DNA from: Allobosea sp. CRIB-10
GTDB taxonomy: Bacteria > Pseudomonadota > Alphaproteobacteria > Rhizobiales > Beijerinckiaceae
Direction of reading: 5' to 3'
Assembly: GCF_900112185.1 (NCBI RefSeq)
Contig: NZ_FOKP01000008.1
Coordinates: forward strand, 124,001 to 188,000
DNA length: 64,000 nucleotides
The notes beneath the pieces are model-generated. The model was not told the origin of the DNA. It was given only the letters and a program-made list of their open reading frames with translations, and did no database searches. Below, piece after piece: positions 30,864 to 33,485 of this stretch. Made by a program: the position numbers and the translations under genes. Every line of letters begins with the position of its first letter. Position 1 is the stretch's first letter.

Positions 30864-31796
30864 TCAACTTTCGGGCAGGCCGAGCATCAGCCGGATATTC
30901 TGCACGGCGGCGCCGGAAGCGCCCTTGCCGAGATTGTCGAGCCGGGCAATCAGCACGGCCTGGCCGAGATCGGCATTGCCGAAGACGCGCAGCTCGAGCT
31001 TGTTGGTGTCGTTCAGCGCCTGCGGCTCGAGCTTTCCGCTGGCCTCCGCCGGCACGACGCTGACATAGGTCGAGCCGGCATAGCGCTCGGTCAGCGCCGC
31101 TTCGAGATCGGCGGGCTTGGGCTTGCCGGGCAGCGCGTCGAGATGCAGCGGCACCGAAACGAGCATGCCCTGCCGGAAATTGCCGACCGAGGGCACGAAA
31201 ATCGGCGGCCGCTCCAGCCGCGAATAGACCTGCAGCTCGGGCAGGTGCTTGTGCTTGAGGCCGAGGCCATAGAGCTCGAAATCGGGCGCCGTGCCAGCCT
31301 CATAGGCCTCGATCATGCTCTTGCCGCCGCCGGAATAGCCGGAGACCGCATTGACGGTAATGGGATGGTGGGCCGGCAGCAGCCCGGCGTCGACGAGCGG
31401 GCGCAGCAGCGCGATGCCGCCGGTCGGATAGCAGCCGGGATTGGCGACCCGATTGGCGTTGGCGACCCTCGCGGCGAAGCCCGGCTCGAGCTCGGCGAAG
31501 CCGTAGGTCCAGTCGGCTGCGACGCGATGGGCTGTCGAAGCGTCGACGATCTTGGGTGCGTCGCTGCCGAGCTCGTCGGCGAGCGCCACGGATTCCTTCG
31601 CAGCATCGTCAGGCAGGCAGAGCACGACGAGGTCGACGCCCGCCATCATCGCCTTGCGGGCGGCCGGGTCCTTGCGCTTGTCGGGATCGATGCTCTTGAC
31701 CACCACCTCCGTCACGTCGGCCAGGCGCTCGCGGATGCCGAGGCCGGTGGTGCCGGCTTCGCCGTCGATGAAGATGGATTTCAGGTTTTGGCTCAT
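30864..31796 (-). CDS. argC: N-acetyl-gamma-glutamyl-phosphate reductase (type 2)
   Basis: 310 residues, the shorter type of ArgC. Reduces N-acetylglutamyl-5-phosphate with NADPH in arginine synthesis. NADP loop FIDGEAGTTGLGIRERL, catalytic Cys122 in NPGCYPTGGIALL, and SGYSGGGKSMIE. GCGAGGG precedes the ATG at 31796. About 213 nt separate it from its likely promoter; that stretch encodes an arginine-rich leader peptide and an intrinsic terminator (see those entries), suggesting control by transcription attenuation. Other arg genes are not in the window. Confidence 0.95.
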   Translation of the reverse strand: MSQNLKSIFIDGEAGTTGLGIRERLADVTEVVVKSIDPDKRKDPAARKAMMAGVDLVVLCLPDDAAKESVALADELGSDAPKIVDASTAHRVAADWTYGFAELEPGFAARVANANRVANPGCYPTGGIALLRPLVDAGLLPAHHPITVNAVSGYSGGGKSMIEAYEAGTAPDFELYGLGLKHKHLPELQVYSRLERPPIFVPSVGNFRQGMLVSVPLHLDALPGKPKPADLEAALTERYAGSTYVSVVPAEASGKLEPQALNDTNKLELRVFGNADLGQAVLIARLDNLGKGASGAAVQNIRLMLGLPES

Positions 31797-31897: not shown

Positions 31898-31922
31898 AAA
31901 AAAACCGCGCTCGGGGCGCGGT
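31898..31922 (-). terminator. Attenuator terminator upstream of argC
   Basis: On the minus strand: ACCGCGC-CCCGA-GCGCGGT (7-bp stem, 5-nt loop) followed by T7, ~100 nt before the argC ATG. Its CCGAGCG segment (plus-strand 31908-31914) is exactly complementary to CGCTCGG (31943-31949) directly after the leader stop codon, so an antiterminator can form instead. Confidence 0.8.
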
Positions 31923-31949
31923 CGCGGGCGTTCGGATTCTAGCCGAGCG

Positions 31950-32009
31950 TCATCGCGGTCGCGCCGGGGCGGCCTGTTCGGTGCGACGTCGGGTCGGGTT
32001 CATGGTCAT
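31950..32009 (-). CDS. Arginine-rich leader peptide of the argC attenuator
   Basis: A 19-residue frame, MTMNPTRRRTEQAAPARPR, with three consecutive arginine codons (7-9: CGA CGT CGC) and two more CGA codons near the end; CGA is generally rare in such GC-rich genomes. The ATG falls 7 bp after a -10 box, so the transcript is probably leaderless, and I see no Shine-Dalgarno. The stop codon abuts the CGCTCGG antiterminator segment: a ribosome finishing the peptide would cover it and let the terminator form, while stalling at the arginines would free it. Function inferred from architecture; translation not shown. Confidence 0.72.
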   Translation of the reverse strand: MTMNPTRRRTEQAAPARPR

Positions 32010-32016
32010 GTGAGCG

Positions 32017-32045
32017 TATATGTTCCGGGTGGGGACGGCTGTCAA
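32017..32045 (-). promoter_or_regulatory. Promoter of the argC leader transcript
   Basis: Minus strand TTGACA (32040-32045), 17-bp spacer, CATATA (32017-32022). Start of transcription is expected at 32009-32010, i.e. at the leader peptide's ATG. Confidence 0.75.
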
Positions 32046-32078
32046 TGAGCTGGACCTAGTCGTCGACACGCCCTCTGC

Positions 32079-32175
32079 GTCATGGTCGGGCTTGTCCCGA
32101 CCATCCACGTCTTTGCTTCGCTGATGGAGCGCGGTGTCCAAGACGTGGATGCTCGCCACAAGGGCGAGCATGACG
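32079..32175. repeat. 97-bp cloverleaf palindromic element, copy 2
   Basis: Same three-hairpin layout and length as 21966-22062. It separates speB from the argC promoter; its hairpins may end speB transcription. Confidence 0.85.
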
Positions 32176-32230: not shown

Positions 32231-33187
32231 TCAACCAGCCTTCTTCAGCGCCAGCGCCTGCAGATAATGCTGCGCCACCGCGGCGCCTGCGATCGCGGTC
32301 GCGTCGGCATGATCGTAAGGCGGCGAGACCTCGACGATGTCCATGCCGCGGAAATCGAGGTCGCGGATCGCCCAGACCAGCTGCAGTGCCTGCGCCGAGG
32401 AGAAGCCGCCAGCGACCGGCGTGCCGGTGCCGGGCGCGAAGGCCGGATCGAGCGCGTCGATATCGAAGGTGAGATAGGCCGGCCCCTGCCCTACGCGTTC
32501 CTTGATCCGCGCTGCGATGCCGTCAACGCCGAGCGCATGCGCCGCATAGGCATCCAGCACCTGGATGCCGCAATCGCGCGGCGCGACGGTGCGGATGCCG
32601 ATTTGGATCGAGCGTTCGGTGTCGATCAGTCCCTCACGCACCGCCTCCAGCACGAAGGTGCCGTGGCTGATCGCGCCGACGCCATCATCCCAGGTGTCCT
32701 GATGCGCGTCGAACTGGACGATGGCGAGCTTGCCATGGCGGGCGACATGGGCGCGCAGCAGCGGCAAGGTGATGAAATGGTCGCCGCCAAGGGTGACGAG
32801 CTGGGCGCCGCCCGCGATGATCGCGGCGGCCTCGCTCTCGATCGCCCGGGCGCAGCCCTGCAGGTCGCTGCGCGGCAGCAGACAATCGCCGTAATCGACG
32901 ACCGCGAGCGTCTCGAACGGGTCGATCCGCGAGGGGTATTGCGCGTCGCCGTCGAAGATCGCGCTGACGCGGCGCATCGCCTGCGGTCCAAAGCGGGTGC
33001 CGGGCCGGTTCGAGACGGCGAGATCGAAGGGCACGCCCCAGACCACGGCGTCGCAGCCGGCGACATCCTTGCTGTAGCGGCGGCGCATGAAGGAGAGCGC
33101 GCCGGCATAGGTCGGGTCATGAGCCGGCCCCTTGCGGTCGCCGGTGAAGGCGTGGTCGATCGTCGGGGTTTCAGCAGGTTCGGTCAT
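32231..33187 (-). CDS. speB: Agmatinase (ureohydrolase family)
   Basis: 318 residues from the ATG opening MTEPAETPTID. Binuclear manganese ureohydrolase: GGDHF, DAHQDTWD and DIDALDPAFAPGTGTP carry the six metal ligands. The family splits agmatine to putrescine and urea; guanidinobutyrase or other guanidino-acid hydrolases are possible alternatives. Located upstream of argC in the same direction but separated by a repeat and a dedicated promoter. Confidence 0.88.
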   Translation of the reverse strand: MTEPAETPTIDHAFTGDRKGPAHDPTYAGALSFMRRRYSKDVAGCDAVVWGVPFDLAVSNRPGTRFGPQAMRRVSAIFDGDAQYPSRIDPFETLAVVDYGDCLLPRSDLQGCARAIESEAAAIIAGGAQLVTLGGDHFITLPLLRAHVARHGKLAIVQFDAHQDTWDDGVGAISHGTFVLEAVREGLIDTERSIQIGIRTVAPRDCGIQVLDAYAAHALGVDGIAARIKERVGQGPAYLTFDIDALDPAFAPGTGTPVAGGFSSAQALQLVWAIRDLDFRGMDIVEVSPPYDHADATAIAGAAVAQHYLQALALKKAG

Positions 33188-33206
33188 CTCGAAAATCCGT
33201 AACAAA

Positions 33207-33485
33207 TCAGCGCCGGCCGTTGAGCCAGACATAGAGGCACCAGGGCAGGATCAAGGCGAGCCCGGTCAGGACGAGCCGCAGCGTCGTCCAGGCGACCGGG
33301 TATTGCAGCGCCCTGCCATCGAGCTCCGGCACGCCGTGGATCAGGCCGAGCGCGCAGGCCGGGGCCAGGAAGACGATCAGCGCGTTGACGATGCGCCGCC
33401 CGCGCGGCAGGTCGCTGCGCGCCAGCGCGAGCAAAGCCGGCACCGCGACCATGCCGAAGGCGATCAGTACGAGCAGGACGCGCAT
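33207..33485 (-). CDS. Small three-helix membrane protein
   Basis: 92 residues with hydrophobic segments ~2-20, ~33-50 and ~68-87 and little else (MRVLLVLIAFGMVAVPALLAL at the start; ends YVWLNGRR). No family recognised. It ends 19 bp before the speB start codon in the same direction, so the two may be co-transcribed. Confidence 0.7.
   Translation of the reverse strand: MRVLLVLIAFGMVAVPALLALARSDLPRGRRIVNALIVFLAPACALGLIHGVPELDGRALQYPVAWTTLRLVLTGLALILPWCLYVWLNGRR

Follow-up and report, generated by a model that had tools for sequence, protein, structure and literature searches.

The analysed stretch of DNA, called the window in the following, comprises 64,000 nt on contig C34 of a 6.33 Mb genome, which by its ArgC (95% identity) stands closest to genomes of Bosea and Boseaceae. 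The minus strand of the window carries argC (positions 30864-31796), which codes for N-acetyl-gamma-glutamyl-phosphate reductase and is assigned to type II by its match to family TIGR01851. An agmatinase gene (32231-33232, sequence and family match) is its upstream neighbour on the same strand and lies outside the switch described here. Furthermore, a short repeat is located at 32063-32100 on the minus strand, upstream of the leader promoter; it is a REP-like dispersed element, with at least 39 other near copies of 23-38 nt and 87-100% identity in the same genome. The genome also contains a second, distant ArgC-like match (G000:C35:373102-373848, 33% identity).

Upstream of argC, all on the minus strand, a -35 hexamer TTGACA (32040-32045) is separated by 17 nt from a -10 hexamer CATATA (32017-32022), which stands 7 nt ahead of the ATG of a short leader ORF (31950-32009) with similar ORFs in relatives. 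This ORF consists of 19 codons, MTMNPTRRRTEQAAPARPR, and the stop codon TGA (31952-31950). Five of the codons specify arginine, namely CGA CGT CGC at positions 7-9 (31983-31991), the predicted stall site according to the sequence and the codon counts given below, and CGA at positions 17 and 19. The promoter geometry places the predicted transcription start at the ATG or 1 nt before it (32009-32010). The motif CGCTCGG (31949-31943) lies immediately 3' of the TGA, and an intrinsic terminator GACCGCGC-CCCGA-GCGCGGTT was detected by scan and fold at 31903-31923, with a T-tract reaching to about 31898. The terminator has 8 pairs, a loop of 5 and a T-tract in the scan and a fold energy of -13.8 kcal/mol, but the single hit compares with 0.4 expected by shuffling and is unremarkable alone. 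The preliminary description of this DNA had already pointed to TTGACA-N17-CATATA with an ATG after 7 nt, to a 19-residue leader with an RRR run, five arginines and three CGA codons, and to CGCTCGG right after the stop codon with its complement CCGAGCG in the terminator loop and 3' arm; all of these elements are present. A sigma-70 scan of the window left the leader promoter unscored, because the scan requires T as the last base of the -10 hexamer.

The question is whether such an arrangement recurs at argC in other genomes. A core set with a single argC upstream window for each of 80 species was taken from the best 80 matches with named records, hence the sample is biased to near relatives. 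The windows were filtered for a near-consensus -35 hexamer, a spacer of 16-19 nt, a short ORF starting 3-12 nt past the -10 hexamer and a terminator soon after the stop codon. Used without an arginine criterion, this promoter/ATG/terminator filter is blind to amino acids. It was passed by 45 of the 80 windows, 43 of which encoded RR (counts that still include L049 and L052, which we judged unconvincing). Of 1320 control windows drawn from these loci, 8 passed, three of them encoding RR. The arginine codons, whose conservation in relatives had been proposed as a check of the preliminary description, are thus kept in almost all argC windows that pass. The element is patchy, since 35 of the 80 species windows fail the filter. 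Carriers are found in Bosea, Microvirga, Chelatococcus, Salinarimonas, at one of seven Bradyrhizobium loci and in several MAGs, and the filter failed at six Rhodopseudomonas, six Bradyrhizobium, one Labrys and one Methylobacterium locus. In other families of the order, 5 of 64 loci pass (L244 was dropped). Leaderless Arg-rich ORFs were also seen before argC at L064/L098, L097, L148, L191 and L199, where the terminator criterion failed; these perhaps represent a variant without intrinsic termination.

For a wider set, argC upstream regions from further genomes of this family and order were added, which resulted in 238 sequences in total, 87 of which passed the filter (both numbers include duplicates). 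L164, L165, L195, L197, L244, L049, L106 and L052 were dropped as unconvincing, and L001, which equals L089, the window's own leader sequence, was removed together with identical copies, leaving 70 distinct leaders. Among these, an RR run occurs in frame 0 of 66 leaders, in frame +1 of three and in frame +2 of three, when the antiterminator-coding end of the ORF is excluded, and the run is missing in three (L075, L112, L170). Of 50 further loci hand-picked from the model matches described below, 46 gave a leader under the same filter; L331, L354, L364 and L365 did not, though Arg-rich ORFs are visible there. Other argC model matches, among them L319, L321, L324, L329, L333, L335, L342, L349 and L363, were not entered. 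The union comprises 115 distinct leaders, many of them from close relatives, and 112 possess the RR run.

The promoter geometry of these leaders is rather uniform. The ATG is found 6-9 nt past the -10 hexamer in 115 of 115 leaders, a spread which is informative because the collection filter allowed 3-12 nt, and the spacer measures 17 nt in 97 of 115 (16-19 were allowed). Shine-Dalgarno-like 4-mers 5' of the leader ATG occur in five of the 115. From this geometry we infer that the leader mRNA is leaderless and that its transcription begins with the A of the ATG or a neighbouring base.

The arginine runs show a sharp codon bias. Their 332 codons in 112 leaders consist of 127 CGA, 112 CGC, 89 CGT and four CGG, with AGR absent, i.e. 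CGA, CGC and CGT together account for 328 of 332, and the first codon of the run is CGA in 100 of the 112 leaders. The 2505 arginine codons of the argC genes at 140 loci include 931 CGG, 157 AGR and 55 CGA. The codons CGA, CGC and CGT should all be decoded by tRNA-Arg with the anticodon ACG, read as ICG. In the genome of the window, one gene each was found for tRNA-Arg with the anticodons ACG, CCG, CCT and TCT among 41 tRNA matches; the last eleven of these added no Arg tRNA, and one of them was undetermined. As nearly all run codons are of the tRNA-Arg(ICG) type, the switch probably senses this one isoacceptor alone, the tRNA set being that of this genome only.

The RNA structures were compared by a swap test, in which a leader's own strands are paired against the strands of other leaders. 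Alignment of the leaders with MAFFT followed by RNAalifold did not recover the antiterminator, supposedly because the spacing of the stems varies between genera; hence the alignment-free swap test was used. The arms of the terminator clearly coevolve (z=-11.3, n=49), and masking of the bases up to 11 nt past the stop codon leaves a folded terminator in 70 of 70 leaders.

In the RNA past a stalled ribosome, most leaders form a long hairpin, in which the ORF end, the stop codon and the post-stop bases pair with the pre-terminator segment and the 5' arm of the terminator. In the window, fold of L089 and swap test place the 5' strand of this antiterminator at 31943-31962 (minus strand), comprising the ORF end, the stop codon and CGCTCGG, and its 3' strand at 31918-31935 (minus strand), where it overlaps the 5' arm of the terminator. 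With the ribosome stalled, bases of the ORF or stop codon pair with 4 nt or more of the terminator 5' arm in 64 of 67 leaders, and the fold energy of the antiterminator region is below that of the terminator in 70 of 70. The swap test argues for coevolution of the two strands: own strands reach -24.5 kcal/mol compared to -21.8 for swapped ones (z=-6.8, n=49, <80% identity), with z=-5.9 (n=30, <75%) and z=-2.8 (n=9, <68%) under stricter thresholds and p=0.0002 for 11 leaders of type II argC. In the set of nine, the inner and outer parts of the antiterminator taken singly are insignificant (p 0.17 and 0.14). The 5' strand starts at a median of 17 nt past the arginine run (quartiles 12-19, range 0-46, n=111).

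The energetic picture is less uniform. When the full stalled RNA including the terminator 3' arm is folded, the MFE structure retains the terminator in 25 of 67 leaders and is free of it in only 42, which means that antitermination leans on kinetics, the antiterminator strands being made first. Furthermore, when the antiterminators are folded as single sequences, they surpass dinucleotide shuffles by a small margin only (mean z -0.97, with 15 of 67 above 0), and the fold of a part of the window's own antiterminator is no better than its shuffles (z +0.8).

The preliminary description had proposed another antiterminator, the pairing of CGCTCGG with CCGAGCG (31908-31914, minus strand), and had suggested that covariation of both pairings be examined. 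Coevolution was found for the terminator arms, as stated above, but the proposed antiterminator has no support: it can form in full in 9 of the 24 Bosea-type leaders and does not coevolve family-wide, as its swap z amounts to +0.4 to +1.0 with three thresholds and two segment choices and p=0.25 for the 11 type II argC leaders. In the Bosea-type leaders, CGCTCGG itself is kept in 22 of 24 and the first five pairs CGCTC:GAGCG in 21, which partly reflects the terminator stem itself. A TCGG:CCGA pairing between CGCTCGG and the segment just 5' of the terminator occurs in 23 of 24, and appears to be the tip of the longer hairpin that would capture the terminator 5' arm. We also considered a pause hairpin between the arginine codons and the post-stop bases, which gave p=0.026 (n=10) and then 0.47, 0.26 and 0.07, and is not claimed.

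A further feature concerns the end of the ORF. Arginine stands directly before the stop codon in 109 of 115 leaders; the final codon is CGA in 103 and the stop TGA in 106, as in the window (CGA-TGA, 31955-31950, minus strand), and this also applies to leaders of type I argC and argD. CGA is decoded slowly by I:A wobble. The third base of the terminal CGA has a mean pairing in the antiterminator fold of 0.40 in type II argC leaders, 0.88 in type I argC leaders and 0.78 in argD leaders; given the two latter values, structure may partly explain the terminal CGA-TGA.

Taken together, a run of control codons for the amino acid of the pathway precedes a terminator situated between the ORF and argC, and by computation a competing antiterminator is masked once the ribosome has reached the stop codon and accessible while it is stalled at the arginine run. 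With a probability of roughly 0.9, we regard the element as a ribosome-mediated transcription attenuator that would set argC expression according to the supply of charged arginine tRNA. The case is a comparative one, built on the ORF, the arginine run, the promoter geometry, the terminator, the coevolving antiterminator and the recurrence before argC and argD. The leaderless, trp-type arginine attenuator of the preliminary description is thereby backed in its main idea by the arginine codons, the promoter geometry, the terminator and an antiterminator that coevolves.

The transcription start, the stalling, the read-through and the response to arginine are predictions for the argC leader, which fit together as follows. 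If arginyl-tRNA is plentiful, the ribosome would pass the arginine run, reach the TGA and cover the last codons together with the post-stop bases, so that the antiterminator would be blocked, the terminator hairpin would form and RNA polymerase would halt before argC. If arginyl-tRNA is short, the ribosome would stall at CGA-CGT-CGC with its front edge short of the antiterminator 5' strand; the antiterminator could form once its 3' strand is transcribed, would take the 5' arm of the terminator and permit read-through into argC. Given the known footprint size of the ribosome, a ribosome paused at the first codon of the run is expected to leave the 5' strand uncovered, and one that has arrived at the stop codon to cover it.

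The same leader could also work by nascent-peptide arrest, in which the peptide together with arginine as ligand, and not uncharged tRNA, stalls the ribosome. The fungal arginine attenuator peptide (AAP) and peptides of the SpeFL type arrest ribosomes with a ligand, and conservation of the arginine residues, including the pre-stop arginine of 109 leaders, would be expected in this case as well. However, by inspection the residues outside the arginine run and outside the antiterminator-coding ORF end vary, and the restriction to CGA, CGC and CGT with CGA in first place is a signal at the level of codons, for which a peptide sensor has no need. Moreover, stalling under shortage fits the sensing of tRNA. 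We therefore consider peptide arrest improbable and prefer an attenuator that responds to tRNA charging.

The distribution of the element among genes was analysed with two models, R1 and R2, which combine leader and terminator, the latter as the sole structure, and are blind to gene context. Some of the argC leaders had been used to train the models, and matches of R1 entered the training of R2. Searches of larger genome sets used stricter filters, by which weak matches are lost. Downstream genes were assigned by testing representative proteins against families and the remainder by similarity. At a line of 45 bits, which was picked after the matches were viewed, the same family (148 genomes) gave 33 places in 33 genomes, all before argC (31 type II, 2 type I). 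The order sample (297 genomes), searched with R1 and not, like the other sets, with R2, yielded 15 places at this line (argC II 4, argC I 9, argD 1, RidA 1) and the class sample (385 genomes) five (argC II 4, argD 1). One further family (79 genomes) contributed 32 places, namely 20 before argC II, one before argC I, eight before argD, two before a GNAT acetyltransferase and one before a cupin gene with a LysE exporter. After removal of overlaps, 80 places at or above 45 bits remain, 76 of them upstream of argC or argD. With any match at E up to 0.001, positive genomes amount to 56 of 148 in the same family, 15 of 385 in the class sample and 29 of 79 in the further family; the own genome gave a single match, at the argC of the window. 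Matches below 45 bits are a mixture. Among those inspected, the argC I and argD leaders L262, L264, L265 and L359-L365 are convincing, and L263, L266, L268, L269, L350, L351, L352, L367 and L369 are not. One genome (G881) has leaders before both its type II and its type I argC. Hence, the assignment to the argC site in the preliminary description is correct but too narrow, as the element also precedes the second argC family, argD and a few other genes.

Some of these other sites deserve mention. At L249 (G365:C2) an Arg-run leader and terminator stand before a RidA-family gene, which is followed by a gene for a small protein with an ACT_7 domain; this domain occurs in arginine sensors of animals. 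Arg-run leaders were also seen before a cupin gene with a LysE-type exporter (L327, G872:C5) and before a small GNAT acetyltransferase (L343/L354, G888 and G877), and the cupin/LysE and GNAT genes are possible further members of the regulon. At a match of 32 bits (L366, G548:C2:538317-541112), a DAHP synthase gene (TIGR00034) is immediately preceded by an ORF containing YFWYFSY and then a terminator; this looks like another attenuator-like leader.

This distribution also bears on the much simpler assumption that the terminator just ends the transcript of the upstream agmatinase gene and that the small ORF is accidental. The agmatinase gene and the terminator indeed lie on one strand, the terminator 3' of the gene, and among the 80 argC species loci an agmatinase-like gene was found at 19 of 45 carrier loci and at 0 of 35 non-carrier loci. 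Seventeen of the 19 belong to L009-L028 (Bosea and close relatives) and two to Chelatococcus. However, within the approximately 2 kb examined, an agmatinase-like gene is missing at 26 of the 45 carrier loci, an S9-like C-terminus motif is found instead at 13 carrier loci, and several Microvirga loci display a separate terminator-like hairpin farther upstream. Since just 19 of 45 carriers have this neighbour, the leader element is independent of it. In addition, the leader with its in-frame arginine run, promoter and antiterminator recurs before argD and type I argC. This makes an accidental ORF behind agmatinase extremely unlikely.

Arginine genes of other bacteria are controlled by the repressor ArgR, and such a repressor, a T-box or another riboswitch could in principle act here as well, with the leader being incidental. 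The ArgR domain PF01316 was found in none of the 41 genomes searched, including the own genome, and in 9 of 14 controls. A scan of the 64-kb window at Rfam gathering scores revealed no family except tRNA, i.e. no T-box or riboregulator match. Systems of this kind do control arginine genes elsewhere, and an arginine T-box is named in PMC1262725, but with these results we see hardly any room for them in the control of this argC.

Attenuation itself is a well-known principle. The classical proteobacterial attenuators serve trp, his, thr, ilv, leu and phe; they have the leader peptide, the control codons and the competition between terminator and antiterminator in common with the argC leader, which differs in its arginine specificity. 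In the accessible part of a 2005 survey, attenuators are listed for His, Thr and Phe, and arginine is placed under T-boxes (PMC1262725).

The closest relative is trpL of Sinorhizobium meliloti, a leaderless attenuator from the same bacterial class, whose RNA (rnTrpL) and peptide (peTrpL) act in trans (PMC10117765, PMC7298713). Both systems have a leader ORF, which is leaderless in trpL and predicted to be so at argC, a run of control codons and an attenuator, putative in the case of argC, before a biosynthetic gene. According to the consulted text on trpL, the argC leader deviates in using arginine instead of tryptophan, in its targets argC and argD and in an antiterminator strand that straddles the stop codon of the leader; the start site and function of the argC leader are predictions. 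The resemblance to the leaderless trpL raises the question of whether the element serves mainly to supply a short RNA, released by termination, or a small protein with a function in trans, as in trpL (PMC10117765, PMC7298713), with argC control being secondary. By inspection, however, the peptide is unconserved beyond arginine and structure-coded residues, and the recurring feature is the position before arginine genes. A main function in trans is thus quite improbable, and attenuation in cis is preferred.

Ribosome pausing at consecutive arginine codons is known from the orf34-speF leader of Salmonella, which senses arginine in this way (PMC6386406). As far as the available text goes, it differs from the argC leader in that Rho termination, mRNA decay and translation control are involved and no Rho-independent terminator was found, in its ornithine decarboxylase target, its arginine codons AGG CGG and the presence of a Shine-Dalgarno sequence (PMC6386406). 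For carA of Pseudomonas aeruginosa, a leader peptide and possible attenuation in an arginine/pyrimidine gene are cited in PMC4997734; unlike in the argC leader, attenuation is tied there to pyrimidines and arginine control is transcriptional, according to the part consulted. Leaderless leader peptides including trpL, leuL and ilvL have been reported for Streptomyces lividans, and none of the eight listed in the accessible text belongs to arginine (PMC8079986). The preliminary description knew of no described argC case, and our search of the open-access literature, as far as its texts were available, likewise found no argC attenuator; an earlier prediction in closed surveys is possible. Hence, as far as the open literature shows, the attenuation logic is known, and an arginine biosynthetic attenuator that is leaderless and serves a regulon of several genes would be new.

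A wider reading can be put forward tentatively, and as a whole it is more doubtful than probable. In Bosea and other alphaproteobacteria lacking ArgR, the arginine regulon might be controlled by attenuation alone, with tRNA-Arg(ICG) as the sole sensor. Besides argD and the argC genes of two families, such a regulon might include some genes of the exporter, acetyltransferase and RidA-ACT kinds. The run avoids CGG and AGR, and its leading rare CGA might, owing to the slow I:A wobble, be the codon most sensitive to starvation. The pre-stop CGA might slow release and thereby keep the ribosome on the antiterminator, which would result in a tighter shut-off.

If the element is an attenuator, arginine biosynthesis would join the amino acid pathways with known attenuation, and leaderless leaders in alphaproteobacteria would not be peculiar to trp. 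The sharp bias of the run codons would make it a clean test case for the tuning of an attenuator to one tRNA isoacceptor. Moreover, as the element stands before argC of two families and before argD, the regulon is predictable from sequence, in a group of ArgR-less alphaproteobacteria for which the control of arginine synthesis appears to be unsettled.
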